Shown here piece after piece: positions 10,309 to 56,903 of a DNA stretch of 64,000 bases. The notes beneath the pieces are model-generated. The model did no database searches, was not told the origin of the DNA, and saw only the letters and a list, made by a program, of their open reading frames with translations. The stretch comes from Antedon mediterranea. Taxonomy: Eukaryota > Echinodermata > Crinoidea > Comatulida > Antedonidae. Numbering within the stretch: the first letter of the stretch is position 1; every line of letters begins with the position of its first letter. The translations under genes and the position numbers were made by a program. The stretch lies in contig NC_092671.1 of assembly GCF_964355755.1 (NCBI RefSeq), positions 18,936,001 through 19,000,000 on the forward strand. The letters are read 5' to 3'.

Positions 10309-10352
10309 GTAAATTACGGAGGTATTTCAACCAATCCTGAAAGTGAAGCAAG

Positions 10353-11438
10353 ATGCCCGCTAGCACATCTGATCAAAAGGACAAGCTGAAACACTCCAGA
10401 AGAGTAAAAAGGGGAGCATTCACTAGAGCCTTAAATGTATTAAAAGCAGCGACAGCTGAAGAAAATGAGAAGGAAGTAGTAGAGAATGCTCTTGAAAGAC
10501 TGCTAAATGCGTCTAATGGAGTAGAACAAGTTCATGATGCACTCGTTGCAATACTTGACACTGAACCTGAATTAGAAGAAGCAGAAACGTATATTGAAAT
10601 TGTGTTATTAGAGTTCACACAAGGTCTGCAAATAGGGAAAAAATATTTAGCAGATATCAAGGCAAGGGAGACATCAGTGGTGGATACTACTACCAGCAAC
10701 AGGGAGGATGATGACCGAAACGTAAGCAGCAATGCAATTGCGAAATTCCTAATGAAGAAAGATTTGATCAGCAATGGTTTGATTAAATTTGATGACAGTC
10801 CATTAAATTACAGATCATGGATGGGTACGTTTAAGGCAATTGTCAAAGAGCTATCCTTGAGTGCACGAGAAGAGTGTGATTTGATGATTAAATGGCTAGG
10901 TCCTGAATCGAGGAAAATAGTAATGAGGTTAAGGGCGGTTCATCTAGACAACCCTGAAAATGGCCTAAAGGACATGTGGAAACGCTTGAATGAAGAGTAT
11001 GGTGCCCCAGAGTTGATTGAGAGTGTTCTATTAAAGAAATTAGAAACCTTCCCGAGGATCAAAGATGACCATCAGCTGAAGGAAATGTCAGACCTGTTAA
11101 GGGAAATTGAAGTAGCGAAATCAGATAAAAGACTACCAGGATTGGCCTGCTTTGATACCGCAAGGGGTGTCAATATGGTGACAGAAAAACTATCATACCA
11201 ACTACAAGACCGGTGGCGTACAACCGGAGCAAGGTATAAAGCCGATAAAGATGTGTCGTTCCCGCCATTCAATGTTTTTGTAGAGTTTGTTGCAAAAGAG
11301 GCCAAGGTACGTAACGACCCGTCATTTCAGATTACATCTGCATCAAAAAGCCGTGATAGCCATAAGGGAAATAAATCTGGTGATTCTGCAAGAGCTTATA
11401 GTACTCAGTCCAAGCAGAAAAAGGTGTTTTTGTTGTGA
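10353..11438 (+). CDS. gag: BEL/Pao gag (361 aa)
   Basis: First ORF of the LTR element, starting 45 bp after the 5' LTR. Basic N-terminus, then helical acidic segments. From about residue 145 comes a capsid-like stretch typical of BEL/Pao Gag (FDDSPLNYRSWMGTFKAIV, then KMWKRLNEEYG-type spacing: LKDMWKRLNEEYGAPELIE). The expected CCHC knuckles are not in this frame: at codons AAA AAG near 11422 the protein runs to a TGA at 11436-11438, while the knuckles continue in the +1 frame. Either a programmed +1 shift or a one-base indel in the A run separates Gag from Pol. Gag would form virus-like particles carrying the element's RNA. Confidence 0.85.
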   Translation: MPASTSDQKDKLKHSRRVKRGAFTRALNVLKAATAEENEKEVVENALERLLNASNGVEQVHDALVAILDTEPELEEAETYIEIVLLEFTQGLQIGKKYLADIKARETSVVDTTTSNREDDDRNVSSNAIAKFLMKKDLISNGLIKFDDSPLNYRSWMGTFKAIVKELSLSAREECDLMIKWLGPESRKIVMRLRAVHLDNPENGLKDMWKRLNEEYGAPELIESVLLKKLETFPRIKDDHQLKEMSDLLREIEVAKSDKRLPGLACFDTARGVNMVTEKLSYQLQDRWRTTGARYKADKDVSFPPFNVFVEFVAKEAKVRNDPSFQITSASKSRDSHKGNKSGDSARAYSTQSKQKKVFLL

Positions 11439-14307
11439 CGGAAATCACACAGTGGAAGGATGTGATAAATTTAAGGGTTTAGAATTGAAACAGCGAGAAG
11501 AGCTAATAAGAAGGAAAGGATTATGTAGAGGTTGCTTGAAAAAAGGGCACATATGGAGAGAATGTAAGTGCCGAAGGATTTGTGATATATGTAAAGGCGA
11601 GCACCCCACTATCATGCATAGATTTTCAAACAGTACTGCTGAACCACCTGTAGTATCTTCGAACAGTGCAGCTGAACCACCTGTAGTATCTTCAAACAGC
11701 GCAGATAAACCACCTGTAGTATCTTCAAACAATTTGTGCAGCAATACATGTGACAATGAACAGTGTTGCTCTTCAATAGTGCCTGTGTGGATTGAATATG
11801 AGAAACAGGAAAGCATAACATACGCCCTCCTTGATGAGCAGTCAGACTCCTGTTTTATCTCAGCAAAACTTGCACAAGAATTAAAAACCAAGGGTGTCCG
11901 CATACAACTGGAAATATCAACAGTACTTACAAAGGGATGTGTTACTTCGGAGAAGATAAATGGTTTGAAGGTGAGAGGACTTAAAGAAGGGAAAACTATA
12001 AGTTTACCAGCAGCCTATACTCGGGATTCCATACCTGTATCAAGACACCAGATTCCTACTCCAAACTCAGTGAATGGTTGGCAACATCTACAGAAAATAA
12101 AAAATGACTTAAGTCCACTTCTTGATATTGAAGTTGGTCTAATAATAGGCCACAATTGTTCTAGTGCACTGATGCCAAGGGAAGTGGTACAAGGTAATCA
12201 TGACGAAGATCCGTATGCGATTAAGACCTTATTAGGATGGGGTGTGGTAGGTGTCATTAAGGCACGGAAGGGAGAACCCACCAACAATGTGAAGCAATTC
12301 TCCTTCAAAACAACTACTAAAGAAGTAATAAAGGTGCTGGAAAGAGATTTCTTGGATGATCGTATAAATGGAAAAATGATATCAGTCGAGGACACAAAAT
12401 TCTTGAACGCTATGCAAAAAGGATGCAGAACAGAAAATGGACATATCCAACTGCCATTACCATTTAAATTGGAAATTCCCAAGTTGCCTAACAACAAAGT
12501 AGCTGTTGGTAAGAGGTTAATTCAGCTGAGACACAAAATGATAAAACAGCCATCATTCGCTGCAAAATATAAAGAGTTTATGACTAGTATCATAGACAAA
12601 GGTCAGGCAGAAAAGGTACCTACAGAAGAACTTGTGTGTGGGTGTGAAAACGTATGGTATATTCCACATCATGGAATATTTCACCCTAAAAAGCCAGAAA
12701 AATTGAGGGTAGTTATGGACTGTGCATCACGCTACCAAGGTATATCCCTAAACGATATGTTACTCACTGGTCCAAATTTAACTAACAATCTAGTGGGTGT
12801 GATGCTAAGGTTCAGACAAGATCGCATAGCAGTCGTTGGCGATGTTGAAGGAATGTTCCATCGGGTCTTAGTGGCGCCGGAGCATCGAAACTTTTTGAGG
12901 TTCTTGTGGTGGCAACATGGTCATTTAAATGAAGAGCCCACTGATTACCGAATGCTCGTTCACGTTTTTGGAGCGGCTTCATCTCCTGGCTGTGCCAACT
13001 ATGGATTTAAAAAAGTAGCAGATTTGTATGAAAACGAGTATGGGACTGATGCTGCTGAATTCGTCCGCAGAGGATTCTACGTGGATGATGGCTTAAAGGC
13101 TGTTCCAACGATCGATGCTGCTATCAGTTTGATAAAGAGAACTGTGGATATGCTTAGCAGAGGCGGCTTTAGGTTGCACAAATTTCTCTCTAATTCTCCA
13201 GAGGTATTGAAGTCCTTACCCGCCACGTCAATTGCTTCCAAAGTAAACCAGTTGGACTTGAGTGATCTTCCTACAGAGCGGACGTTGGGTATATTGTGGA
13301 ATGCAGCGGAAGATACCTTTACATTTGAAGCCAATTTGAGAAATAAGCCATCAACTAGAAGAGGTATTCTGTCTACGGTGAGTGCTATATTTGACCCTCT
13401 TGGGTTTGTTGGTCCTTACGTTCTGTTGGGTAAACGCATATTGCAGGAGATTTGTGCTGGTGGTGCTGAATGGGATCATCCGGTTGGTGAAGAAACCCTT
13501 AGATCATGGGAAGAATGGAAAAAGCAATTGGTGTACTTGAAAGACGTCAGTATTGAAAGATGTTATAAGCCAATAAGCAATAGAAATTCAGAAATTGTAT
13601 CCACCGAGCTACACCATTTTAGTGATGCGAGCGAGAAAGGATACGGTCAGTGTTCATACTTACGACTTGTTGATAAAGAAGGTAAAGTGAAGACATCACT
13701 CTTAATTAGCAAATGCCGTGTAGCTCCTAAGAGAATGATAACTATACCAAGGTTGGAACTGGCAGCTGCAGTGGTATCGGTTAAGGTTGCATCCATGCTG
13801 AAAGAAGAGATAGAGTATCCGAACGTCACTGAGTATTTCTGGACTGACAGCCAAGTAGTCATTGGATATATTAATAATGAAGCGAAAAGGTTTAACACCT
13901 TTGTAGCTAATAGGGTGCAACAAATTCACGATGCGAGCACTAGTGGTCAGTGGCACTACGTAAGCAGTGAGGATAATCCCGCTGATATTGCATCACGTGG
14001 AATGGATGCTGAGAAATTGAGAGATTGCGAGAGGTGGTGGCATGGACCAGCTTTCTTAAACCGTGAAAAATATACAATCAACCAGTTACATATTGAAATA
14101 AAAGATGACGATGTGGAAGTAAGGCAAGCTAAGGTGTTTGCAACACAAGTGAAAACTGAACTGATCCCAGACATGTTAAGAAGAACTTCCAGTTGGCACA
14201 AGGTACGACAAATACTTGCAAGGTGTTTAATCTTTATTTATAAATTAAGAGGATGGAAGCGATCCGGAGAAGTTACGGTAGAAGACCTAACTAGAAGTGA
14301 AAATTGA
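11287..14307 (+). CDS. pol: BEL/Pao pol: knuckles, protease, RT, RNase H
   Basis: The open frame spans 1006 codons; meaningful similarity starts near 11424. In order it has two zinc knuckles (CFCCDGNHTVEGC and CRGCLKKGHIWREC); a three-fold 16-codon repeat rich in EPPVVSSNS (11641-11730); and an A17-type aspartic protease with ALLDEQSDSCFI in place of the usual DTG/DS-G loop. Then come RT (GDVEGMFHRVLV, FGAASSPGCANYGF, catalytic FYVDDGL) and RNase H (HHFSDASEKGYGQ, RLELAAAVV, TDSQVVIGYI, NPADIASRG). The frame ends at TGA 14305-14307, before the integrase. No host function is implied. Confidence 0.9.
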   Translation: MLQKRPRYVTTRHFRLHLHQKAVIAIREINLVILQELIVLSPSRKRCFCCDGNHTVEGCDKFKGLELKQREELIRRKGLCRGCLKKGHIWRECKCRRICDICKGEHPTIMHRFSNSTAEPPVVSSNSAAEPPVVSSNSADKPPVVSSNNLCSNTCDNEQCCSSIVPVWIEYEKQESITYALLDEQSDSCFISAKLAQELKTKGVRIQLEISTVLTKGCVTSEKINGLKVRGLKEGKTISLPAAYTRDSIPVSRHQIPTPNSVNGWQHLQKIKNDLSPLLDIEVGLIIGHNCSSALMPREVVQGNHDEDPYAIKTLLGWGVVGVIKARKGEPTNNVKQFSFKTTTKEVIKVLERDFLDDRINGKMISVEDTKFLNAMQKGCRTENGHIQLPLPFKLEIPKLPNNKVAVGKRLIQLRHKMIKQPSFAAKYKEFMTSIIDKGQAEKVPTEELVCGCENVWYIPHHGIFHPKKPEKLRVVMDCASRYQGISLNDMLLTGPNLTNNLVGVMLRFRQDRIAVVGDVEGMFHRVLVAPEHRNFLRFLWWQHGHLNEEPTDYRMLVHVFGAASSPGCANYGFKKVADLYENEYGTDAAEFVRRGFYVDDGLKAVPTIDAAISLIKRTVDMLSRGGFRLHKFLSNSPEVLKSLPATSIASKVNQLDLSDLPTERTLGILWNAAEDTFTFEANLRNKPSTRRGILSTVSAIFDPLGFVGPYVLLGKRILQEICAGGAEWDHPVGEETLRSWEEWKKQLVYLKDVSIERCYKPISNRNSEIVSTELHHFSDASEKGYGQCSYLRLVDKEGKVKTSLLISKCRVAPKRMITIPRLELAAAVVSVKVASMLKEEIEYPNVTEYFWTDSQVVIGYINNEAKRFNTFVANRVQQIHDASTSGQWHYVSSEDNPADIASRGMDAEKLRDCERWWHGPAFLNREKYTINQLHIEIKDDDVEVRQAKVFATQVKTELIPDMLRRTSSWHKVRQILARCLIFIYKLRGWKRSGEVTVEDLTRSEN

Positions 14308-15600
14308 TAATTAAAGCTGTGCAATACAATGAATGGAAGGATTTGAATGCGCTGGTGAAGTTAGACCCAGTCGTAGACAACGATGGATTGCTGCGTGTAG
14401 GAGGTCGTTTAAAGAAAACTAATCTACCAGAAGAAATTAAACATCCAGTAATCATCCCTGCAAAAAGTGATTTAACCCGATTAATAGTCAGTCATTACCA
14501 TAATCAAGTGTACCACCAAGGTAGAGGGATTACTCTTAATGCGGTGCGAGTTGCTGGGTTCTGGATGATAGGTGGCGTGGCATCTGTCTCAAGATATATT
14601 CACGACTGCACAGTATGTCGTCGACTTAGACGACCTACAGAACTCCAGCGTATGGCAGATCTACCAGTCGAAAGAGCCGAGGCAGGTCCTGCCTTTAGTT
14701 ACTGCGGCGTAGACTTCTTTGGGCCGATCATTGTATAAAATGGTAGAAAGGAACTTAAGCGCTATGGTGTGCTATTTACATGTTTGGTGTCTCGAAGTGT
14801 GCACCTGGAGATAGCCAGCTCGTTATCGACAGATTCCTTTATGAATGCCTTTCGGCGATTTTTATGTAGGAGAGGACCCGTCAGACAAATGAGGTCCGAC
14901 CAAGGAACCAATTTTATTGGTGCCACAAGAGAGCTGAAGGAAGCAGTAAAGGAGATGGATCAAGAGGCAATTCGCATAAATATGCTAAGGTTAAATTGTG
15001 ATTGGAAATTTAACACACCCACTGCAAGCCATCACGGAGGAGCTTGAGAGCGTATGATCAGAACAACCAGAAACATTTTAGATAGCTTAATGCTTCAGCA
15101 TAAGGCGTTATTGAATGATGACATGCTGAGCACATTTATGACAGAAGCAGAAGCAATAATTAACAGCAGACCTTTATGTGCTACTAACGATGCATCTTTA
15201 GAACCGTTGACACCATTTCACTTGTTAACGATGAAAAGCAGTGCGGTGTATGCTCCGCCAGGAAACTTCAAAAGGGACGGGAAGTTTAGCCGGAAGCTCT
15301 GGAGAAGAGTCCAGCATCTGGCGGATACGTTTTGGAGTAGATGGCGAAAAGAATATATTATCAATTTACAGCAAAGACAGAAGTGGACTAAGAAGAAAAG
15401 AAACATAAGCATTGGAGATATTGTACTTTTGTATGAAGAAGGTGTCCCGAGAAATCATTGGGAGCTTGCTCGAGTTACCAATACCAAGCCGAGTGATGAT
15501 GGTTTAGTGAGAAGCGTCACTGTCTTCGTTGGATGAAGAAGAACAACATTGGATAGGCCAGTAACCAAGATTGTGTTGTTGGTTCCTAAAGATCAGTAAT
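14308..15600 (+). pseudogene. BEL/Pao integrase region, broken by frameshift and stops
   Basis: Shifted in frame relative to the preceding pol, this part encodes an integrase: zinc-binding H..H and CTVCRRL motif (14500-14640), catalytic core with VDFFGP and RSDQGTNFIGA, and the glutamate region near 15048. In-frame stops interrupt it at 14736-14738 (TAA), 15045-15047 (TGA) and 15534-15536 (TGA). Such a copy cannot make a complete integrase by normal translation, so it probably moved with proteins supplied by another copy, or decayed very recently. Confidence 0.85.
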
Positions 15601-28639: not shown

Positions 28640-29485
28640 CATTATGAATCTATTTGTTTCATGACCAAGCCAAACCGTTCGTCTTCAAGTCATTCATCGT
28701 TACGTCATTCATCATTAAGTCGTTCGTCCACGAGTCATTCGTCTCTAAGTCGTTTTTCGTTACGTTATTCGTCTTCAAGTCGTTCGTGCTTAAGTCGTTC
28801 ATCTTCAAGTCGCTCGTCCTAGTCATTCATCATTTAAGTCAGTCATCAGTAAGTCAGTCATCATTAAGTCATTCATCATTAAGTCATTCATCATTAAGTC
28901 GTTCGTCCTCAAGTCAGTCATCATTAAGTCATTCATCCTCAAGTCGTTCATTCTCAAGTCGTTCGTCCTAAAGTCATTCATCATTAAGTCATTCATCATT
29001 AAATCATTCATCATTAAGTCGTTCGTCCTCAAGTCGTTCGTCCTCAAGTCATTCATCATTAAGTCGTTCATCATTAAGTCATTCATCATTAAGTCGTTCG
29101 TCCTCAAGTCGTTCGTCCTCAAGTCATTCATTATTAAGTCATTCATCATTAAGTCGTTCGTCCTCAAGTCATTCGTTCTCAAGTCGTTCATCATTAAGTC
29201 GTTCATCATTAAGTCATTCATAATTAAGTCGTTCGTCCTAAAGTTGTTCATCATCAAGTCGTTGGTCCTCAAGTTGTTCATCATAAAGTAGTTTGTCCTC
29301 AAGTTGTTCATCATCAAGTCGTTCGTCTTTAAGTCATTCGTCTTCAAGTCATTCGGCCTAAAGTTGTTCATCATCAAGTCGTTCGTCTTCAAGTCGTCCG
29401 CCCTCAAGTCATTCATCATAAAGTCGTTTGTCCTCAAGTTGTTCATCATAAAGTCGTTTGTCCCCAAGTCGTTCATCGTCATGCA
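28640..29485. repeat. 15-bp tandem array, left arm
   Basis: More than 50 degenerate 15-bp units beginning AAGTC, mixing CATTCATCATT and CGTTCGTCCTC endings. Because the unit is five codons long, long stop-free frames appear on both strands; they are not evidence of a protein. Confidence 0.9.
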
Positions 29486-29875
29486 CCAATGATTGCACTA
29501 CCGATTTGAAGATTTGGACGATTCTATTATTGATAGGGCAGCGAAAATAATCGTACTGCATTTATTTTTATGTAACTCATTGATGTATGTAACTCTTCAC
29601 AAAATAATAACAATAATAACTTAAAGCCAGGATCTCAATTTTAGCTACAAAATCGATGAAAGACAGAATTTCAATACAAAATGCTTGTATTATAGCACAA
29701 TTGCTTACTTTAAAAACTCAATACTGTACTAACTCCACGTCAGATCTGACTCATCTATCCAATTTTACAGTATTCCTAGATAACACAGGCTATAAAACTT
29801 TCTTATTCCACACCACAAAACCCACAAAATGGACCATTTGTTATGGAAACCTAGATAAAGGAGGTACAGTCTTAA

Positions 29876-31244: not shown

Positions 31245-32130
31245 GACGATGAACGACTTGGGGACAAATGACTTGGGGACAACCGACTTGATGATGAACA
31301 ACTTTAGGACGAATGACTGAATGATAAACGACCTTATGATGAATGACTTGAGGGCGATCGACTTGAAGGCGATCGACTTGAGGGCGAACGACTTGATGAT
31401 GAACGACTTGGAGATAAACAACTTCAAGACGAACGAATTAAGTCTGTATTGCAATCATTATGACGATGAACGACTTGGGGACAAACGACTTGACGATGAA
31501 CAACTTTAGGACAAATGACTTGAGGACAAACGACCTTATGATGAATGACTTGAGGGCGAACGACTTGAAGACGAACGACTTGATGATGAACAACTTGAGG
31601 ACAAATGACTTGACGATGAACAACTTTAGGACGAACGACTTGAAGACGAACGACTTGGGGACGAACGACTTGATGGTGAACAACTTGAAGACAAACGACT
31701 TTATGATGAACCACTTGACGACCAACGACTTGATGATGAACAACTTTAGGACGAACGACTTAATGATGAATGACTTGAGGACGAACGACTTCATGATGAA
31801 TGATTTAATGATGAACGACTTAATGATGAATGACTTTAGGACGAACGACTTAATGATGAATGACGTAACGATAAATGACTTGAGTACGAACGACTTAATG
31901 ATGAATGACTTAATGATGACTGACTTAATGATGAACGACTTGAGGACGAACGACTTGAGGACGAACGACTTGAAGACGAACGACTTAAGGACGAACGACT
32001 TGAAGACGAATGACTTGAGGACGAACGACTAGAAGTCGAACGACTTTGAGACGAACGACTCGAGGACAAACGACTTAATGATGAATGACGTAACGACGAA
32101 TGACTTGAAGACGAACGAGTTGGCTTGGTC
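31245..32130. repeat. 15-bp tandem array, right arm
   Basis: Mirror image of the left array (GACTTGATGATGAACGACTT-like units). Unit order is not identical to the left arm, so the arms have diverged by unit gain and loss. Confidence 0.9.
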
Positions 32131-39767: not shown

Positions 39768-42336
39768 ATGGAGGAGGAAACCAAAACTGCACGATTGGGA
39801 ATTATGAACATTCTGCGAGAAGAGCAGAATGGTATTTCGTTGATTAAGATATTTTTTAAATATCCGAGAAGAAGGCAGGCGATGTCAATTGCTGTTGACA
39901 TTTTAAGAAACGACAGTTCATTTCTGGGACATTATGCTGTCATCGATATTGGCCGATTGCTGGGGAATAACCTTGGTGGAAAGGTATGAATATTATGTTT
40001 ATTTAACAACATCGACAACTCAATTTTAAAACAATCAATATAATTTAAATTTTAATCTGTACAATCACACTCAAATTGACTCCTTGTAACTAAAGCAATC
40101 ATATCATTTGAAGGTGTTTACATATGTTTTTAGTTGGAACGTCACGTCACTGCTCTTTATTCATTATTATGTAATATCCTTTATTTTTCCCTTTAACAAA
40201 AATCAGAATTACCTAATGTAAACAATTCCATTGCCATTAACAATGTTTAGTTGACTGAACATTTTCTTTTATTGTTAACGTTAACAAAAATGGTAAACTA
40301 GTGGTTCTATAAACATTTAGAACGTTGTACTCTTTAGATAATGGAACTACATTGTTTTCAGTTTGATGATGTAGACGCTTTATATAAGTAAATACAAATT
40401 CGATAATGCAACTGATTAGATACTATATAAAAGAATTCGGTATTGTCTCAGTTCTGATAACATCTGTCAGCATTGTGTTTAATATTTAGTTTTTGGATGA
40501 TTATGAATTCTAGTAGATATATTTGTATACCTTTGCATGTACTACATTATTAACTCAATCGCTAATTCTTCTGCAGTAAATATTATACTAATCAATAAAA
40601 TATATCTACACTCGGCAACTTATCAGTCACCTAAACTCTTTGCCCAATTACATGTTCTAAGAATTCATTTTCCAAAAACCAATGTAACATTTAGATTTTT
40701 GCTATTTTCAACCTTTTGAGCACCTCTTTTAGTTTGGAAATATGTTCCTCGTGATTTTGTGTGTCAACATCATCATTATGAGCATTAGGCTTATCTGTTA
40801 TGTATAAATCAATCAGGTTTTCGACCATCATACTCAACATCTACTGCACTTACAAAAGTGACGGAAGACTGGTATAGTGCAATAGAAGAGGGTAAGCTGG
40901 TCGGAATCTGTTTACTAGATTTTAAAAAGGCCTTTGATACGGTAAACCATAACATACTATTAAGCAAATTGAGACTTTATGGTTTAAGTAAATATGTTTT
41001 AAAATGGTTCGAGAGCTATCTTTCTGAGCGAAAGCAATTCACAAATGTAAATAATACATTGTCTGACTATACACACATCCAATGTGGAGTGCCTCAGGGG
41101 TCAATCGTTGGCCCACTTGCTTTCCTCTTATATATCAATGACCTATCGAAAGTTGCAAACAAATGTAAAATAAGTATGTATGCTGACGATACTATAATTT
41201 ATTGTTCTTCAAAAAATGAAAATGAAATATACCAAAGTATAAATGTCTCTAAATCCGAGTTCATGTTGATCGGATCGACAAACCGATTGGCAACCACCAA
41301 AGAAAAAAATAGATCAGTAAATATAGATAACGATGTTGTACCACGCGTTCGATATTGCAAACATCTCGGTATCATAATAGACGAACATTTATCATGGAAA
41401 AATCAGATTGAATACATTCGAGGTAAAGCTCTAAATGGATTGGGTATGCTCAGACGATGTAGCTATTATTTTCCACAAAACATATTAAAACATATTGCAA
41501 ACTATTGTAATACCTTACTTGAGCTATTGTAACATAATTTGGGGAAATAGTAGTCAAACTCTAATGAAAAGAGTTCAAACTATCCAAAACAGAACAGCTC
41601 GAATCGTGTGTGGTCTAACATGGGACACACCTAGTAGTGAGGCACTAAGACAAATTAATTGGTCACCTTTATTTTATCAAGATAGATATGAATGTTGTAT
41701 GGTTATATATAAGGTTTTGACAGATAATGCCCCACCTTACCTAATTAATGTATTTACATACAATGATATAAATTATAATCTAAGGCACAGTGATACACAT
41801 CTAGTCATCCTGAAGCCAAAAACCGATTTTTAAAAACGAAGTCTGTCTTATCGTGGAGCAATTATATGGAATAGTCTCAATGTTGATACCCTTCCAAATT
41901 CAGTTAAGTTGTTTAAAACGTATCTAAAAAATGCATTGTAAAACATAATGGTATGGTAATCTACGATGGTGTACATCCAACTTTTAAAATGGCTAAATAC
42001 CATGAAAAATGATGATGATGATAAGATGTTCTATCACTATTATTTTAAGGTAAATGAAATCAAAAAGATTTATTATGTATTACAGTAGAATCCCCATAAA
42101 TTATACACTTCGATAAGGGTTCCCGTTTACACGGGAAGTACCGGTATGGTGTACCCTAAATAGAGGTGTCAGATGAAGGGGATTCTGCTGTAATTTTGTT
42201 TCTTTTCAATTTCAATTTTTTTCGTTTCTGTCGTATTTATATGGTGTTGGTTTTTTTGTAATATCACGAACTTGTGTAAAAACAATCAATATTGATTGAA
42301 CGAGTTGTACTGTATATCAGTCTCGTGTCTAAATAA

Positions 42337-42367
<31 letters not shown>

Positions 42368-45300
42368 CCAATCCGTCCTGTCACTGGCAATACGACATAC
42401 ATTCCACTGGCTTCATATAAAATAACTTATTATATTTAAGGTAATGCTAAATACATACCAATCATCATCATGTATAATAATAACAACCATTATTACCAAT
42501 TATTATCATGAAATGGCTGTAAAATGGTATAAAAATATTCACAGTATTGATACATATATATCAACTAGGCCTTATGGAAGTGAAAAAACAACGGATAATC
42601 TTGTGTAATTATGTCTTAGAAAAAAAGTGAAGCTCTTCAATTGATTAAAACTGCTTTTGAAAAATTGGAAAACTACGGACGCATGCTATTAAACCCTGTA
42701 GCAAGACGACCACCAACATGGAAGATAATTTCATTTTCAGATGAAATATATAAAAACGAAATTGAAGTTGTTGAGGTAACGTAAGCTTGTTTTAGTAATT
42801 TTATTTTAAGACTTTGTTTAGAATATTACTTTAACGTGTTTTTCACTTTGTTGTTCTCTGTGGATATTATATAAACTTAGATAAAATATTTAAAATTAAA
42901 CACTGTTTAATACAATGTTTCAGAAATTATATTTCCTCTACTTACGCTAGCCATATTTGAAATAAACAGTAACTGGATACTAATACTGTAATGATAAAAT
43001 AGAGCATATAACATGAATGCTAATTTGAATAATAAGCATAATTGTTGAGTTTCAACTTCAACACTATGTTCCCATTTTCTAAGTTTCCAACATCTAGAAA
43101 TTATTTGAAATTAGCCAGATTGGCATGCGAATGACCGTGCGTTTAACGTTAAAGTCTCCTTTTTCATCGTACACATACAAGTTAGTACGTGATCTTATGT
43201 GAAAGAACCATGAGTAAAAATCTGGTTATGTAATGCAGGTAAAAGATTCCAAATTAAAGCCATATTTATATTACTTGACATAACCACAATGAGGAATCGT
43301 GCAATATTGTGTTATTATTTGTATTTTGACTGTTTAGGGATCAAAAGCAGTACTTTTTCAGCTTGGATATACCGTATCAAATTATGATGGGTTATCTTTC
43401 CCCCTTGATGTCAACCACCCTGACGAAGATCGTGTCCTAAATATAGTTACAGACCTTATGATAGCTCAAGTTGAAATTAAAACATACCTGGACAATAAGC
43501 ATCCTAACCCTAAAGAACTTCACACTATTATTCACGGCTACAGTTACATTACCTCAGTACATACGGATCATAGATTTGAAGATCCGGAACCAACTGCCAT
43601 AACAGTTCCAGAGAGTAATAGTAGGCCTAATATGGAACACCTAAAATTGGCTTCTGTTGTAAATGAAACTACACAGGCATCAGTGGTTATTCCTTCTGAC
43701 AACACTCAAAGCATTGGATGGGAATGTCCACATTGTACCTTCTGTAATGTGGACACAGGTTCTTCCATCTGTGGTGCGTGTTCAAAAACATCGTACAGGA
43801 CTACTCAAGCGCCTTCTCAAGGTGGTAGAAAAAGATGCGGTATGTGTAATAAGGATTATTCAATGACGCAGGTACAGTTGGTGATTTTATTTCAAATTAT
43901 TTATAAATACGTAAATATCCGGTGTTTTTGTACATACATATACCTGTGGAAGTGGCGCCTCTAATGGGTATGCCGTATAGAGCTATTTATTATTGTTTTA
44001 GTCACAACGATTATTAGGCAACATCTTATATCAAAGAGTCAAAAAGTCAAAGATGCTCTCCAGGTGGAATGTCATCCAGAGATGAGTAGTAGTAATTAGT
44101 ACAATCTTGTTTATTTTTAATTATTTATATGTAATTTTTTCTTTATATGGACCAGAGATTCCGAAATAAAAGATTGAATCAATAAATGACTGAATATCAT
44201 TATATTATTCAATAAATCAATGAGAGTAAATTCTTAATATTTAAATTGGTAAAAAGCAGAGATAATGCAAATAAATAATGAACTTAGAACTACACATAAA
44301 ACCCTAATCACCTCCATATTTATTAACTGCTCTGTCTACATTATCTAACTTTATGTGAATAAAAAATGTGATGTGCCCAAATATGGACATGATGATGTAT
44401 AGACAGCTTTACAACCAAAATTTCATCGTCACTTACAAATTGCACTTACAATTATTACAACCAAATTTACAATTTTTTTTAGATTCGACAGTCTCCATAT
44501 TGTTCCCAAGACAAGCAGTGTTGGTTTTGTGAAGAATGCCTTACTAAACACTATACAAATTGCATCAAAGACAAGAATATTGTTGATGTCTCATGTCCTT
44601 CTTGTAGTCTCCCAAAACTTAAAGACATGGAAAAAGCTGAACTTTCCGATTATTTTGCAAAAATTGACCCTATGGTAAGTTACAGTACCTTACAGTAGAA
44701 ATTGTATCTGGACAATCGGTGGCAATACTCACAATAATTTTTATCTGGCAGGAAAAACAGTGAGTTTCACTAAATGTCTATTTGCCTAGTAAACTCAAAA
44801 CGTACACACTTACCTATTTTCAGCATTTCCTCGAAACTATAGCTACACTAATGGCTTATATTCTTTTTTTTTATTTTATCACTGTACTTTTCATACTTTC
44901 CACTTTCTTTTTTAAAGTTGCAAAGTTTGCTCGAGAGAGATATTTTTGACCTTCTTCATCGAAAATTAAGAGACATATCATTAATGGATGATGAAAGATT
45001 CAGATGGTGTTCACACGTAAGCAGTTGATATTGAAATATGGTGCTCCAGCGCGCTTCACAATGGCTACACATTGCCACTATCTAAGCAAGCCTCATTAGA
45101 CGAATTGGTAGTGGTACGGTATTAGGCAGCCGAAAATCTTAATGCTTTAATTTAATTTCACTTTGTCAGTGCTATTCTGCTATATTTTATAGGTCTTGTT
45201 TCCGAAAATTGTCTTAATTCCCCCCAACAGAAATATCGTTTTGCTTTCTTCTAGTGTGGTTATGGTTTTATTAATGAGAGAATTGGATGTAAAATGCAGT

Positions 45301-48300
45301 GTTCAGAATGTAAAAAGTACACATGCTTTGAATGTAAAGAGAAGGTAAACTTAAGAACACAGACTAAACACAGGATAATCCAGTGACAAATGACATAACA
45401 TCTGTTTTTATAGTGATCATTTTATTCTGATTGTAAAGCTAATGCTATTTTGTGTTATATATTCTAAACATACTATTACGAAGTTATAGTTATATTACTA
45501 TGATAATTTGCTTTTCAAAGAAGTCAAACTTGTTTTAATGTGATTGTCATAATAATAATTATTATTTATTATTACTATAATTTTGTTTTATTATTCTTTC
45601 TAAAGTGGGAAGCACATTATGATGGACTGACATGTGAACTATTTCAGCAATGGAAACTAGACAATGACAATAGAAAAGATTGCTCTATATGTTTCACTGA
45701 TTTTCCAATGACTCAGGTATTTATTTATAACATAGCTCATTATGTGCACAATAGTTGAGAATGACACCCACCATGTTGCCTGTTAAATTCATTTATTATA
45801 ATACAAAAGCAAAACAACACACAATTAGTTTAAAATTCTTAAATACATGTGTATCGGAAATTGACAATATTGATGTGCCCGTAAACCGATTGAAAGCACC
45901 CACCGGCTTCTTACAAGTTCCTTGGCCCTAGCCTGGTTTACTTCCGTCACTCACAAAGTCACCCTCAAAATCGTCCTATATCCGCTTTTGCACACACTAC
46001 TGCACTTACAATCAAATTGACATTTTTTTCAGATTCGGCAGTCTCCATATTGTTCCAAAGACAAGCAGTGTTGGTTTTGTGAAGAATGCCTTTCTAAACA
46101 CTATACAACTTGCATCAAAGACAAGAATGTTGTTGATGTTTCATGTCCTTCTTGTCGTCTCCCACATCTTAAAGACATGGACAAAGCTGAACTTTCTGAT
46201 TATTTTGCAGAAATTGACCCTATGGTAAGTAAAGTAGAAATCGTACCTGGACGATCCAACCGGATGGTATTTTACAATTGGCCTATAACTCCCAGTAATA
46301 ATTAACTTTCCCTGAGTCTTGCTACCTTGTAAAACTCACAGTCAAACAGTGTGAATGCTGTCACTCGGTGATTTTAAGAAACTAAGTATATAGGAATTAT
46401 TAAACCATATCATTACTATTTCTTTAATGTCGGCCCCCCATGTTTGCCATTCTCCATCCCAGTTTGAGTTTCGTTATAGCATCTATTCTATTAGTAACCT
46501 CATTTCCCTAAAACACGTAACCTGTATTCAATCAAATGATTTGTTTTATTTAATTATAATTATACAATATCCTATTTCCAGCATTCCCTCTCTGCAAAAC
46601 CAACATAGATTGCCTTAAATTGACATGGTTCCTTTTCTTTTTAAAGTTAAAAAATTTGCTCGAAAAAGATGTTTTTGATCTACTCCATCGAAAATTAAGA
46701 GATAGAATATTAGAAATAGATGAAGAAAGATTCAGATGGTGTTCACATGTAAGTAAATTACAGAAAATAATGGTTTGAACCTATTAGAACATTTTGACTG
46801 GTGGTCTAGACAGATAGAATGTTTTAATTTAATGATAAGTAGGTTTCGATTTTCAGGTCATATAATATATGACCTAAAAAGTCAGTCATCTTAATTCACA
46901 ATAAAATTAAAGCGTTGCTGCTTTCTTCTAGTGTCATAATGGTTTTATTAATGAAAGAATTGGATGTAAAATGCAGTGCCCAGAATGTAAAGAGTACACA
47001 TGCTTTGAATGTAAAGAGAAGGTAAACTTAAGAACTTAGAGAATTTATATTTCTGTCTGCAATATGTATTCCTGTTTGTTTTTATATTTGTCTGTTAGCA
47101 GGCTCTACCTACTCTATCAAACTAGTAAAAAAGTGTGATGTTTCCAAATATGGCAGGGAAATGACATCATCATGTCTGTATATATCTCATATTTTTGTCA
47201 CATAAAGTTTAATAGTGTAGACAGAGCTTAAAAGAAGGATCTTTACCACATTTAAACCACAATGAGATATGGTCACGGAAGACTCTATTCCATCTTGGAG
47301 GAAATCCGGATTAGGATGAACACATTTTAAATATTCTGCTAATTTAAGCGGATCCTTACCAAACTCAAACAAATACAAATAACGCTATTACATTCGAGGC
47401 AATGTTCCGGACCAGAATCCAAATTCTGCACCACGATTTTGTTTTTAGTAATTTCAGACCATAGGGATATCTTTACCAAATTCAAACCCCTGAACGTTAT
47501 TAGCCAAAGACTCCATTATATTTTAGAGGAAATATTCCGGACCAGGATCCTAATTCTGGACCACTTTTAGGCTGTGGGATGATGGTCAACTTCAGACTCT
47601 TTGTGGCCACCAACTGAAAACAAAAATTTTCATATAACAATTATAAACACAACATACTATCCTTGCTTGGCCAACACAAAACGGGTCTTAATCATTTGTA
47701 ATTTTCGATATCAGGCGAAGGTTTTCTCTTAATCTCAAATGTAATTATAATGCTTTGTGCTATGCCTAATCGCAATGTGTTGTAAATGCAGAATTAAGAT
47801 GGAAGGCAAGGACGTTGCCGTATTAGCTAATATTTCTTTTCTTTCCATCAATCTAAAGTGGGAGGTACAACATGACGGACTGACATGTGAACAATTTAAG
47901 AAATGGAAACAAGACAATAACCCTGATGTCCAAGTTGACAGATATCTAGCGATACATGGAATAGGTAGAACTCTTTTGTTGTGTTTGCATAACAAATAAC
48001 CACATATTTTAACTTTCTGATACATAAAAGTAAACTTTCTGAACAATGATATCAGCATTTATATTGATATATTAAGAGTAAAAGTCGGCAAAAATCTGAC
48101 TTATAATAACTATTGTTATCATAATCATAAATGGTATATGTTTTTGTGTATGAATTATTGTGTTTATAATTATTACTGTTAATAATTCAACCTTTAGATT
48201 GTCCTAAATGTAACGCAAGATATGATCTTGCTAGAGGGGGCTGTTTGCACTTTACGTGTACAAATTGTAAATACGGATTCTGTAGTGGCTGCAACCAGGA

Positions 48301-49998
48301 ATTTTCTTCGGTAAGTACAGTATATAAATGTGTGCTTATTTTGATTCCAAACATTATTTAGGTTAATTATTAATAATTACCATTTTAGTTTTGTTATGCA
48401 ATTTTAACCGTTTTAAATATGTCATATGTTATACAGTTTGACAGTAGCTAAATTACTGTTTGTAATTTTAATGTTTTTCTTAATTTTATATAAGGATTTC
48501 CCTGTGGAGTCTATCGATTTTTATTTTAGGTAATCCAGCCTCATTGATTTACTTTTGTCTTTTTTTGTTCAGTTTGATTGCTCGATATATTATAGCTTGT
48601 GTGTATCATTTTACTCACTACCACACAAGGCATCCCAGCATATCAAACAATGTACAGCATTTTCTTTTTAGTACATACTAATTTATTTTTTTTACAAATT
48701 GATCAAAAATACATTGTTTTTATTTGAAAATTAACATTTTATGAGGGTTTATGTCAGAGTTGTAGGAAATACAAATCTTGTGCCAAGACAGGAATGCATA
48801 CACATCATCCTAGACATTGCTTGTTTTATCTAAGAGATCAAAATGTTCATGAACTACAGCAGTTACTGCAGGTATGATCATAGATTGGTACACATTCGAG
48901 TTTTGAGTTTGAAATTTGTTTCAATTCACTATAGGCCTATTAGTGTTCGTAGTGAAAAATGTACTGTGTATATCCGTTATACTGTAAAGTAATCAATTCT
49001 ATATTTTATTTGATATTCAATGTTATCTACAGAATGGGGAAGTAGAATTTGACATAGAACCAAGGAATGGCAACCAAAATGATATATGTACTGTTCAAGA
49101 GCAAAAGGAAACCGGTACAGGTCTAGTAGATCAAATGTGTGGAAAGGATGTGAAAGCTCAACATGCGGGATTGTGCGAGTATGTTTAAATGTTCTATATT
49201 TAATTTTCATTCAAGAACAGTACAGCATGTTCAATTTTCTACAAAACAAATATCGATAATGTACTATTTTAATCAAGCATACTACCATTAGTATCAAAGA
49301 GATTGTAATTGGTTTGTTTGGGGTTTTTCAGAGTGCATTACAAGGAGTATCTTGTCAGTTTGATTAATAAAAATCATATTGATCCAGCTGAAATTTTAAC
49401 TGTTGAAAAGTTGAGAATATGTATCGAACGTCATGACATGAAAGTACCCGAGAAACATCAAATTGAACATGAAGACGTTTACAGACAACGTCTTGTGCAA
49501 GTGAGTATAATGTACAAATCACTATTTTATTATTTTTAAGATAAGATATAGGTTTTAATTACGTCATTTTAATGTCACATTACAGTTATTCACATTGAAT
49601 AAAAAGTTGATCGAAAACTAATCATTCAAAGCAAACAAATAGTCAAATTGTCTGCCAGCCAATGGGTGGGTATTTTGATTGAATTTAACCATTTAGTTTC
49701 TCATTTCCAGGGTTCTTTTTTTCTACGGAACTGTTAACTAAGCTAAAACTACAAAATTGTGATTTTATTAATCTTCAATTTTCATGTTTTTGGAGGACAA
49801 TACAGTACATCTTTAAGTCCAAAGTCATTCCTACAACTACTTTGCGTCAGTCAAACGCAAGAAGTGTCTGGTTCATGTTACGCAATTTATATTGGTACCT
49901 GCTATAATTTAAGAATGTATATCGAATGTATTACTTAAATATTTTAATGTTATTATTCTTCTTTCCAGATGGTGCAGACAAAGTTTCCTATCAATTAA
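39768..49998 (+). CDS. RNF31: HOIP-type RBR E3 ligase with duplicated RING1-IBR
   Basis: Catalytic subunit type of the linear (Met1) ubiquitin ligase. Sixteen exons join in frame into about 819 aa: 39768-39983, 42620-42775, 43338-43871, 44483-44674, 44918-45016, 45255-45344, 45606-45716, 46033-46224, 46647-46748, 46932-47021, 47859-47964, 48198-48310, 48758-48871, 49033-49178, 49332-49500, 49969-49998 (TAA). All borders are AG/GT. Domains: PUB 1-165; NZF 252-276 ([12 protein letters not shown]); RING1a 291-366; IBRa about 395-451; RING1b 455-530; IBRb about 560-611; RING2 631-667 ([10 protein letters not shown], catalytic Cys645, His647); LDD to 819 ([17 protein letters not shown]). Human HOIP is about 1070 aa with one RING1-IBR plus extra zinc fingers and a UBA. 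None of those extras is seen here. Start chosen because [11 protein letters not shown] aligns with the family N-terminus. Confidence 0.93.
40795..41960 (+). mobile_element. Non-LTR retrotransposon fragment in intron 1
   Basis: 5'-truncated RT on the same strand as the host gene: [56 protein letters not shown], catalytic YADDTI, and the thumb [15 protein letters not shown]. About 25 residues are missing between YQSIN and KSEFMLIG, and a frameshift lies near 41500. Jockey/CR1 superfamily. Inactive. It lengthens intron 1 but does not touch exons. Confidence 0.85.
42080..42193. mobile_element. Small TA-flanked MITE in intron 1
   Basis: Inverted ends CAGTAGAATCCCC and GGGGATTCTGCTG, flanked on both sides by TA, which fits a Tc1/mariner-type non-autonomous element of about 110 bp. 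Non-coding. Confidence 0.75.
42340..42367. repeat. TA dinucleotide microsatellite
   Basis: An uninterrupted TA run follows AATAAAGTT, near the 3' side of the intron 1 retroelement. Confidence 0.9.
43338..43871 (+). other. Exon 3: PUB end, NZF and RING1a head, no UBA
   Basis: One continuous 178-codon exon carries the end of PUB, an acidic/Ser-rich spacer, one NZF finger (43719-43793) and then, after only about 14 residues, the first two RING1 cysteines (CGMC at 43836-43847). HOIP normally has about 180 residues with a UBA domain between its last NZF and RING1. Because the exon is continuous, no hidden exon can supply it at this place. Confidence 0.9.
43836..45671 (+). repeat. RING1-IBR module a (exons 3 end to 7)
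   Basis: First copy. RING1 ligands CGMC, YC, QC, FCEEC and SCPSC come from exons 3-4. The linker [17 protein letters not shown] is in exon 5. IBR ligands WCSHC, QCSEC, TCFEC and H.DGLTC come from exons 5-7. All expected zinc ligands are present. Exon 4 differs from exon 8 at 12 of 192 bases and 8 of 64 residues by my hand count. Confidence 0.9.
44329..44409. mobile_element. MITE copy in intron 3 (internally deleted)
   Basis: Ends GCTCTGTCTACATTATCTAA and TATAGACAGCTT; core GTGATGTGCCCAAATATGG. Same family as 22376-22515. There is no matching copy in the paralogous intron 7, so it arrived after the exon duplication or was lost from intron 7. Confidence 0.7.
45606..45716 (+). other. Exon 7: hybrid exon joining IBR tail to RING1 head
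   Basis: The first 22 codons ([22 protein letters not shown]) match exon 11, the end of an IBR. The last 15 ([15 protein letters not shown]) match the end of exon 3, the start of a RING1. The join is in frame and inside an exon, so the duplication breakpoint lies here, near 45670. Confidence 0.92.
47100..47229. mobile_element. MITE copy in intron 10
   Basis: Ends GGCTCTACCTACTCTATCAA and AATAGTGTAGACAGAGCTT, with core GTGTGATGTTTCCAAATATG and a GACATCATCATGTC dyad. Confidence 0.75.
47240..47565. repeat. Imperfect repeats of about 100-130 bp in intron 10
   Basis: Three loose copies of GAGGAAAT(ATT)CCGGACCAGGA with following AATTCTGGACCAC, near 47297, 47396 and 47524. Non-coding. Confidence 0.5.
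47859..49998 (+). other. RING2 and LDD exons of the HOIP-like gene
   Basis: Exons 11-16 encode the catalytic RING2 ([20 protein letters not shown]) and the linear-chain-determining domain, with its inserted zinc finger ([20 protein letters not shown]) and the acceptor-positioning helix region ([20 protein letters not shown]). The last exon adds MVQTKFPIN before TAA. A polyadenylation-like AATAAA lies at 50199. Confidence 0.9.
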
Positions 49999-52512: not shown

Positions 52513-52672
52513 TTTTATTGTGCCATCCATCCAATCAACGGAAAGAATGATGGATGGAAATCGGATTATAACATTCCATATTTAATTATAATTCCCGTAT
52601 ACACACAGAACTGGAAGTTGTTTTTCGCTGATAAGAAACCCTAAGTAAAACTTTTGTTGGCTTTTGTTGACA

Positions 52673-53593
52673 ATGAATTCTACCGAAATAGAATCATCAA
52701 CCACAGTGACAATAATATTCAGAACAGTCATTTTTGTCATCATTATGCTGTTTGCAATTATTGGTAATTCTATAACTCTTGCTGTAATCTACACAGTCGA
52801 ATCACTTCACACAAAAACGTATGTCTTTGTCGCAAAGCTAGCAATCGCAGATCTTTCAGTCGGACTATTCGTAATTCCTATTGTTCTTACTGCTTCTATA
52901 TGTGATGGATGGCCATTTCTACAAGACTGGATCTGCGAGTTTTCTTCTTCTATTACTGGACAGTGCTACTTAACAAGCATTGCCACTCTATGTGCAATAT
53001 CAATTGAAAGATACCATTCTATAATCAACCCTTTACATTACGATTTAAAAATGAGCAAACGGAATGTTATCATTTTGTTATGTTGGACGTGGATTCAACC
53101 TTTTATATTTGTCATCATAGGATTGGGGAAGAACAGATATGACCCTTATTCATTTAATTGTCTGATCAAGTGGGAAGAGAACATTATGTTTTCGATGACT
53201 ATATCTGCTTTATGCATGTTCATTCCGGTTTCAATAACAGTCAAATCATATTACCACATTGGTAAGTTAACTTTTCAGCAACTAAATCGTATTCATAATG
53301 TTACAACACTGGCGTCAAATTCAACAAATATGATAAGGCCCAAGATCAAATCAGCCTTTGTGTTTGGACTTGTCATTGGCACTTTTATGATATTGTGGTT
53401 GCCGTACCAAGTTGTAGTGAATTGTCAGTTATGGAAGGTGCGTTTACCAGATGGGTTTAAAACTATTTCAATGTGGTTAGCGTTATCGACCTCGTCATGT
53501 AACCCAGTAATTTACTCTCTGATGAATAGGACATTTAGACACGGACTTCACCAATTATTCGTCAAAATCTTCGATCGACCATGGTTAAATTAA
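52673..53593 (+). CDS. Rhodopsin-class GPCR, intronless (306 aa)
   Basis: Seven-transmembrane receptor of the plasma membrane with class A hallmarks. TM1 has AIIGNS, TM2 has LAIADLSVG and the first extracellular loop has GWPF. TM3 carries the loop cysteine (WICEF) and an ERY motif (SIERYHSIINPL). TM4 has WTW, extracellular loop 2 has FNCLI, TM6 has LWLPYQ and TM7 has NPVIY. N-terminus MNSTEIESS has an N-glycosylation site. Loops are short. Position 3.32, aspartate in amine receptors, is Thr by my count, so a classic amine ligand is unlikely; the ligand is unknown. ATG 52673 is preferred because the frame's earlier starts are TTG and the paralogue begins at the same MNSTEI. It is the intact member of a tandem pair with 55987-56903. 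Confidence 0.9.
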   Translation: MNSTEIESSTTVTIIFRTVIFVIIMLFAIIGNSITLAVIYTVESLHTKTYVFVAKLAIADLSVGLFVIPIVLTASICDGWPFLQDWICEFSSSITGQCYLTSIATLCAISIERYHSIINPLHYDLKMSKRNVIILLCWTWIQPFIFVIIGLGKNRYDPYSFNCLIKWEENIMFSMTISALCMFIPVSITVKSYYHIGKLTFQQLNRIHNVTTLASNSTNMIRPKIKSAFVFGLVIGTFMILWLPYQVVVNCQLWKVRLPDGFKTISMWLALSTSSCNPVIYSLMNRTFRHGLHQLFVKIFDRPWLN

Positions 53594-55986: not shown

Positions 55987-56903
55987 ATGAATTCTACCGA
56001 AATAGAATCATCAACCACAGTGACAATAATATTCAGAACAGTAATTTTTGTCATCATTATGCTTTTTGCAATTATTGGTAATTCTTTAACTCTTGCTGTA
56101 ATCTACACAGTCGAATCACTTCACACAAAAACGTATGTCTTTGTCGCAAATCTAGCAATCGCAGATCTTTCAGTCGGACTATTCGTTATGCCTATTGTTC
56201 TTACTGCTTCTATATGTGAGATAGATGGCCATTTTTACAAGACTGGATCTGTGAGTTATCTTCTTCTTTGATTGGACAGTGTTACTTAACAAGCATTGCT
56301 GCCTTATGTGCAATATCAGTTGAAAGATACCATTCTATAATCAACCCTTTACTTTATGAATCAAAAAAGAGCAAACGGAATGTTATCATTTTGTTATGTT
56401 GGACGTGGATTCAACCTTTTATATTTGTCATACGTTTGGGGAAGAACAGTTATGATCCTTATTCATTTATTTGTGCACTCAAATTGGAAGACAACATTAT
56501 TCTTGCAATGTCTATATCTGCTTTGTGTATGTTCATTCCTGTTTCATTAACAGTCAAATCATATTACCACATTGGTAAGTTAACTTTCCAGCAACTAAAT
56601 CGTATTCAGAATGTTACAACAGTCGCATCGAATTCGACAAATATGATTAGGCCCAAATCAGCAGTTGTGTTTGCAATTGTCATTGGTACTTTTATGGTAT
56701 TGTGGTTGCCGTACCAAGTTGTAGTGAATTGCCGGTTATGGAAGGTGCGTTTACCAGATGGGTTTAAAACTATTTCAATGTGGTTGGCGTTATCGACCTC
56801 GTCATGTAACCCAGTAATATACTGTCTGATGAATAGGGCATTTAGAGACGGACTTAACAAATTAATCCTCAAAACGTTCGATCGCTATAGACCATGGTCA
56901 TAA
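55987..56903 (+). pseudogene. Second GPCR copy, broken by a 2-bp insertion
   Basis: Close paralogue of 52673-53593, with ATG 55987 in the same context. After ...LTASIC the sequence reads TGTGAGATAGATGG where the intact copy has TGTGATGGATGG. The extra two bases shift the frame to a TGA at 56269-56271. The rest (56268-56903) is open in the shifted frame for 211 codons, with SVERY, WTW, LWLPYQ and NPVIY intact. Other differences from the intact copy are in-frame (loss of one and two codons). This suggests function until a recent break, or a sequencing error at this point. It sits between the inverted repeats at 54883-55325 and 58125-58637. Confidence 0.85.

Follow-up and report, generated by a model that had tools for sequence, protein, structure and literature searches.

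RBR ubiquitin ligases are described as carrying a single set of RING1, IBR and RING2, and the activity of HOIP is regarded as gated by partners bound to its UBA. The window analysed here, a stretch of 64,000 nucleotides of Antedon mediterranea DNA (C2:18936001-19000000, in a searched genome of 354 Mb and 18 contigs), contains a HOIP-like gene in which two RING1-IBR units precede a single RING2. This locus raises the question whether the doubled unit is real, and what an additional unit might do in a ligase with only one active site.

The HOIP-like gene extends over 39768-49998 on the forward strand and consists of 16 exons, which together give 819 codons from ATG to stop without an internal stop; GT/AG ends are present in 15 of the 15 introns. 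The encoded order is PUB, NZF-like finger, RING1-1, IBR-1, RING1-2, IBR-2, RING2 and LDD. An earlier note, made from the letters of the window, had read the exons in the order RING1-IBR-RING1-IBR-RING2-LDD and had assigned the number 645 to a single catalytic cysteine. Both the order, with the exon positions, and the numbering hold in the one open frame. The exons are given below, C8 being the contig which carries a second HOIP gene of the same genome.

39768-39983, forward strand: exon 1 (N1), residues 1-72, with ATG start and GT donor; matched by tblastn with exon 1 of the C8 gene (E 2e-10)
42620-42775, forward strand: exon 2 (P1), first part of PUB; 63% identity to C8, aligns with HOIP PUB chains, e.g. 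4oyj
43338-43871, forward strand: exon 3 (A1), remainder of PUB, NZF-like finger and first CxxC of RING1-1
44483-44674, forward strand: exon 4 (B1), body of RING1-1
44918-45016, forward strand: exon 5 (C1), RING1-IBR helices and start of IBR-1
45255-45344, forward strand: exon 6 (D1), core of IBR-1, with Glu407 (allosteric Glu) in INER
45606-45716, forward strand: exon 7 (E1), fusion exon in which the last part of IBR-1 (without the canonical His) is joined to the start of RING1-2 (CSIC)
46033-46224, forward strand: exon 8 (B2), body of RING1-2
46647-46748, forward strand: exon 9 (C2), RING1-IBR helices and start of IBR-2
46932-47021, forward strand: exon 10 (D2), core of IBR-2, with Glu572 in INER
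47859-47964, forward strand: exon 11 (E2), last part of IBR-2 with an intact QHDGLTC, followed by the linker to RING2
48198-48310, forward strand: exon 12 (R2), RING2, with catalytic Cys645 in GGCLHF
48758-48871, 49033-49178, 49332-49500 and 49969-49998, forward strand: exons 13-16, end of RING2, LDD and stop; covered by PF18091 and the 5edv alignment

The best solved-structure matches of the RBR core were RBR-LDD chains of HOIP (5edv, E 5.9e-92; also 6sc5), the alignment to 5edv extending to residue 746 of the 747-residue query, and unit 1 alone was matched to HOIP by phmmer with an E value of 6.8e-31. The LDD following RING2 was recognised by PF18091, the HOIP C-terminal Pfam domain (E 1.2e-31). 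In RING2, the motif with Cys645 aligns with GGCMHF of HOIP, and the Cys, the next His and the LDD are all kept. The PUB label rests on the HOIP PUB chains (E 4e-17), while the Pfam PUB match (E 0.07) lies under its cut-off. The finger following PUB was identified by eye from its motif (...CGAC) and by alignment with C8, and is thus called NZF-like; Pfam NZF had no match in the window protein or in the C8 protein, and the finger exceeds the consensus of PMC3940038 by one residue. Unit 2 and RING2 form a complete RING1-IBR-RING2 set, and as an additional RING1-IBR precedes it, the rule of exactly one set does not hold for this gene.

The second HOIP gene was found on contig C8 (27712500-27724000) and has one RING1-IBR-RING2-LDD in the 11.5 kb fetched. 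It has an NZF-like finger, a B-box-like zinc finger (recognised by eye from the translation) and exons matching both HOIP UBA Pfam families (PF16678, E 2.5e-9; PF25163, E 7e-8), for which a search of solved structures (PDB) gave no match at E up to 1. Across RBR and LDD the two genes are divided into exons at the same places, and the matched pieces are about 42-79% identical (49-73% in the genome search). The end of PUB, the NZF-like finger and the start of RING1 are in three separate exons in C8, whereas in the window gene they are in the one exon A1 and the UBA region is missing. No UBA family was among the Pfam matches of the window protein, and the UBA exons of C8 reached at best E 0.33 in the window, at another place. 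Because a single-RBR HOIP with UBA domains exists on C8, the window gene can be described as a paralogue that lacks the UBA and has a block of four exons in duplicate. As a UBA is found in both human HOIP and C8, its loss from the window paralogue through in-exon deletions would be the simplest account. To judge from these comparisons, the window gene is a trimmed and derived HOIP (RNF31) paralogue and not the sole HOIP of the genome. At the RING2 position aligned with what we take to be Gln896 of human HOIP, the window gene has Gly (48198-48310) and C8 has Glu (L007:8059-8171).

The two units have equal exon lengths (192, 99/102 and 90 nucleotides), and the introns inside and between them are in phase 0. 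The unit proteins are alike in 126 of 160 aligned residues. Exons 4 and 8 differ in 12 of 192 bases (44483-44674 compared to 46033-46224), in agreement with the identity of about 94% counted earlier by hand. Exon 7 (E1) starts like the last IBR exon and finishes like the first RING1 exon, with the join in frame, which places the break points of the duplication inside two exons. When the intron pairs of the two units were compared, the best local match exceeded all 200 shuffles in three of the four pairs, with a similarity of only 27 to 47 columns adjoining an exon; the fourth pair was not outstanding, as 15 of the 200 shuffles reached its best local match.

These features bear on the explanation that the second unit is an assembly artefact or consists of allelic copies set in tandem. 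We consider this very improbable, because the join lies inside exon E1, where it is also in frame. The units differ in 54 of 477 aligned bases and their introns are unlike. When the genome was searched at the DNA level with unit 1 (4 candidates scored), the matches listed were units 1 and 2 on C2, the C8 gene and one 38-base match on C1, C8 being the only other locus that covered the exons of the unit. Assembly error was rejected on the divergence of the units and the in-exon join. What the DNA encodes is two RING1-IBR copies ahead of a single catalytic cysteine. IBR family matches numbered 17 and 15 in two family searches of the genome, and these lists leave room for a further doubled RBR, since the intron-split IBRs of the window gene and of C8 are themselves missing from the PF01485 list.

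The similarity of exons 4 and 8 had led to the view that the second unit is recent. This view did not survive the comparison of the whole units, as the low divergence is limited to exons 4/8 and 6/10. Between the units, dS was 0.44 over the start of RING1, C and E5', compared to 0.11 over B and D, and a recent duplication was rejected on this difference. For the same three blocks, dS to C8 was 0.46 and 0.51 for the two units, and over PUB, RING2 and LDD the window gene and C8 differ with a dS of 0.55. The between-unit difference, expressed relative to the mean difference to C8, was 0.85 for the start of RING1, 0.32 for B, 0.85 for C, 0.52 for D and 0.95 for E5'. Heterogeneity among the five blocks had a chi-square p of 0.02, and the silent sites of start, C and E5' compared to those of B and D gave a Fisher p of 0.006, with small samples and with the grouping of B with D picked after the data were seen. 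Since the remaining blocks show dS near that of the paralogue split, exons B and D have probably been homogenised, and the simplest account would be that the unit was duplicated long ago, at about the time when the paralogues split, and that exons B and D underwent gene conversion afterwards. With human HOIP as the outgroup, five residues join unit 1 with unit 2, compared to 0 and 1 for the alternatives, by which the order of the unit duplication and the paralogue split is only weakly rooted.

Unit 1 is not a plain copy of unit 2. The earlier note had stated that every zinc-binding Cys and His is kept in both units. This is correct for the cysteines, all 17 of which are present in each unit, and incorrect for the canonical His of IBR-1, which is Tyr. 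A His stands one place earlier, giving H-X5-C in unit 1 compared to H-X4-C in unit 2, and the QH pair is kept in unit 2 (QHDGLTC), in C8 (WEGQHDGLTC) and in human HOIP (WEEQHRGRSC). The IBR formula given for soybean RBRs ends C-X2-C-X4-H-X4-C (PMC3904995), and from this formula and the alignment we read the lost His as a presumptive zinc ligand of HOIP. The RING places of RING1-1 are occupied by eight Cys, the same as in RING1-2. Its first loop, CGMCNKDYS, differs from C8 in 15 of 36 bases, compared to 11 of 36 for CSICFTDFP of unit 2, and phmmer aligned unit 1 with HOIP only from beyond this loop; unit 2 was not searched alone. Pfam zf-RING_2 matched unit 2 weakly (E 0.018) and had no match in unit 1, but this says little about the units, as C8 has no match either. 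No donor-ubiquitin helix follows IBR-1, the chain running directly into RING1-2. The linker from IBR-2 to RING2 is three residues shorter in the window gene than in C8 (MQAAGLARHLEEHGIDC) and in human HOIP, and as this gap sits where the donor-ubiquitin helix is expected, catalysis may be altered. The central RING1 helices of the two units are nearly identical, and both units have the allosteric Glu in the INER motif.

It could be argued that the duplicated block is a neutral relic, which has been tolerated while unit 1 slowly decays. The lost His of IBR-1 and the diverged loop of RING1-1 are in line with this, and so is dN/dS to C8, for which unit 1 had 0.48 and unit 2 had 0.54, similar to the 0.41 of PUB, RING2 and LDD. 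Fisher tests of synonymous and nonsynonymous sites gave p values of 0.006, 0.022 and 5e-8 for the same three parts. The simulations of evolution without selection were partly weak. Between the units, the silent excess had P 0.095 and the absence of stops P 0.055, and on the unit 1 branch compared to C8 the absence of stops had P 0.0945. However, the rate of unit 1 does not exceed that of unit 2, with 9 and 10 unique residue changes, respectively. The 17 Cys of unit 1 are all Cys in unit 2 and vice versa, and the 16 Cys of C8 are all kept in unit 1; only 0.25% of 2000 runs between the units kept all unit Cys (P 0.0025), and on the unit 1 branch 1.5% of 20000 runs kept all those of C8 (P 0.015). 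Unit 1 has no stop and no frameshift at a dS of about 0.44, the sole length difference being one codon in exons 5/9, whereas the introns keep at most short similarity next to exons. We therefore regard a neutral relic as improbable. Constraint on units 1 and 2 appears to be moderately supported, and is likely rather than certain as the P values for the silent excess and the absence of stops are weaker.

Constraint on each unit would also be found if the units were used one at a time. As every intron inside the units or between them is in phase 0, single-unit splice forms are possible, and both single-unit joins (A1-B1-C1-D1-E2 and A1-B2-C2-D2-E2) are open through the RBR. In such a splicing cassette most transcripts would have one unit and the double form would be rare, and dN/dS near 0.5 to C8 for each unit would agree with it. 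Exon E1 would then be useless, yet it keeps both Cys of the CxxC of RING1-2, its splice sites and an open frame. Its make-up would be meaningful only where an IBR is followed by another RING1, which speaks for a product with both units. By a small matrix derived from the same 24 sites, the donors of E1 and A1 score 7.9 and 8.4, which is inside the span of the gene's donors (3.7-9.2). We thus consider a cassette of this kind possible but rather doubtful.

What the additional unit would do can be approached from what is known of HOIP and other RBRs. For RING1 fragments of RBRs including the linker helix, binding to UbcH7 and UbcH7-Ub was reported to be about equal to that of the whole RBRs, and in the same report binding of such fragments to UbcH5A-Ub was not detected (PMC5758712). 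Isolated HOIP is described there as being autoinhibited by its own UBA, with HOIL and SHARPIN relieving the inhibition (PMC5758712). An allosteric ubiquitin is bound on the RING1-IBR helix and the IBR, and E809 of HOIP has been reported to be critical for the activation (PMC9834252). It is thus sound to suppose that unit 1 may provide an extra E2 dock or an extra allosteric ubiquitin site, and such an E2/ubiquitin accessory is favoured here because both units keep the Glu of INER and have near-identical RING1 helices.

The reading we consider best, with about even confidence, is that the main product of the window gene contains both units, that catalysis is carried out by the RBR formed of unit 2, RING2 and LDD, and that unit 1 is a non-catalytic accessory module which binds a UbcH7-type E2(~Ub) via RING1-1 and/or ubiquitin via the RING1-IBR helix and the Glu site. 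The sequence comparisons indicate that the window paralogue goes back to an old gene duplication, after which its B-box-like and UBA regions were lost and the coding pieces on either side came to lie in one exon. They also indicate that the RING1-IBR block was duplicated in tandem, with breaks within two exons, producing the fusion exon that reads from IBR-1 straight into RING1-2. Unit 1 would occupy the former place of the autoinhibitory UBA, and could concentrate E2~Ub or product chains by the sole Cys645. The resulting ligase would need neither HOIL-1L nor SHARPIN for being switched on. The binding, the transfer in cis and the independence of LUBAC are all put forward as predictions for the window protein. 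The lost His, the diverged RING1-1 loop, the gap in the linker and the lack of detected UbcH5A-Ub binding by RING1 fragments count against the accessory role.

Some of these features would also suit a brake or decoy, in which unit 1 keeps E2~Ub or ubiquitin off RING2 and the paralogue acts as a weak or dominant-negative regulator of the C8 HOIP. The shortened linker, the altered zinc site of IBR-1 and the lack of a donor-ubiquitin helix after it could reflect such a role, and the reported high affinity of RING1 for UbcH7 could serve to hold the E2 (PMC5758712). On the other hand, the catalytic Cys, the next His and the LDD are kept, and PUB, RING2 and LDD are constrained, which makes a brake unlikely. 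It is likewise unlikely, though conceivable, that the accessory unit is a second port, either with RING1-1 and RING1-2 both loading E2~Ub for the one RING2 or with IBR-1 holding the growing Met1 chain. The acceptor-ubiquitin and E2 sites are reported to overlap on RING2, which limits processivity (PMC5413910). If the protein had two ports, one E2 could unload while the next is already docked, and the clash of E2 and acceptor would be bypassed with the UBA autoinhibition gone.

Compared to HOIP, the catalytic subunit of LUBAC, the window gene has PUB, an NZF-like finger, RING1, IBR, RING2 with its Cys and LDD in common. It differs in having two RING1-IBR units, one NZF-like finger, a shorter linker to RING2 and an altered IBR-1 His, and in that the UBA region and the B-box-like zinc finger were not found; unlike it, the C8 paralogue has a single RING1-IBR, the B-box-like finger and both UBA families. 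In CUL9 and the ARIH-CRL assemblies the extra RING is part of a cullin-RING ligase and not a second RING1-IBR in the same chain. As E3-E3 assemblies in which an extra RING works with one RBR, they may nevertheless be regarded as analogous (PMC11257990, PMC8460447). LUBEL of Drosophila also combines an RBR-LDD of the HOIP type with a re-arranged N-terminal part, but is described as having one RBR-LDD, a B-box, an NZF and two UBAs, with no PUB in that description (PMC5413910). Among the matches listed in the open-licence literature, no title or abstract start described an RBR with two RING1-IBR units. A search of the genome for the OTULIN family gave no match, and none was obtained in the controls of that search either.

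The unusual domain architecture of this HOIP paralogue is real, as read from the DNA, and its function is putative. A natural protein without the UBA and with a doubled E2- and ubiquitin-binding half would be a test case for the number of docking sites that can serve a single RBR active site, and also for whether allosteric ubiquitin sites can be stacked and whether HOIP can work outside LUBAC.

Some further features were observed around the gene. The introns flanking the doubled block contain an inverted repeat (44329-44385 and 47171-47227), which could favour exon skipping or circular RNA. It was set aside as a splicing or circularisation device since its left arm is a dispersed repeat, with at least 42 genome matches, its own place included (40 scored of 2304 first-look candidates). 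In the first intron of the gene, the reading frames at 40789-41833 resemble, by eye, the reverse transcriptase of a retroelement, and long retroelement-like reading frames (by eye, from the list) were also seen at 10347-15536. Repetitive DNA at 28794-29497 and 31438-32032 is open on both strands and codes on paper for repeats of the KSFIIKSFVLKSF type or the MMNDLRTND type. Downstream of the gene, two alike open reading frames in tandem, at 52649-53593 and 56220-56903, are GPCR-like by eye.
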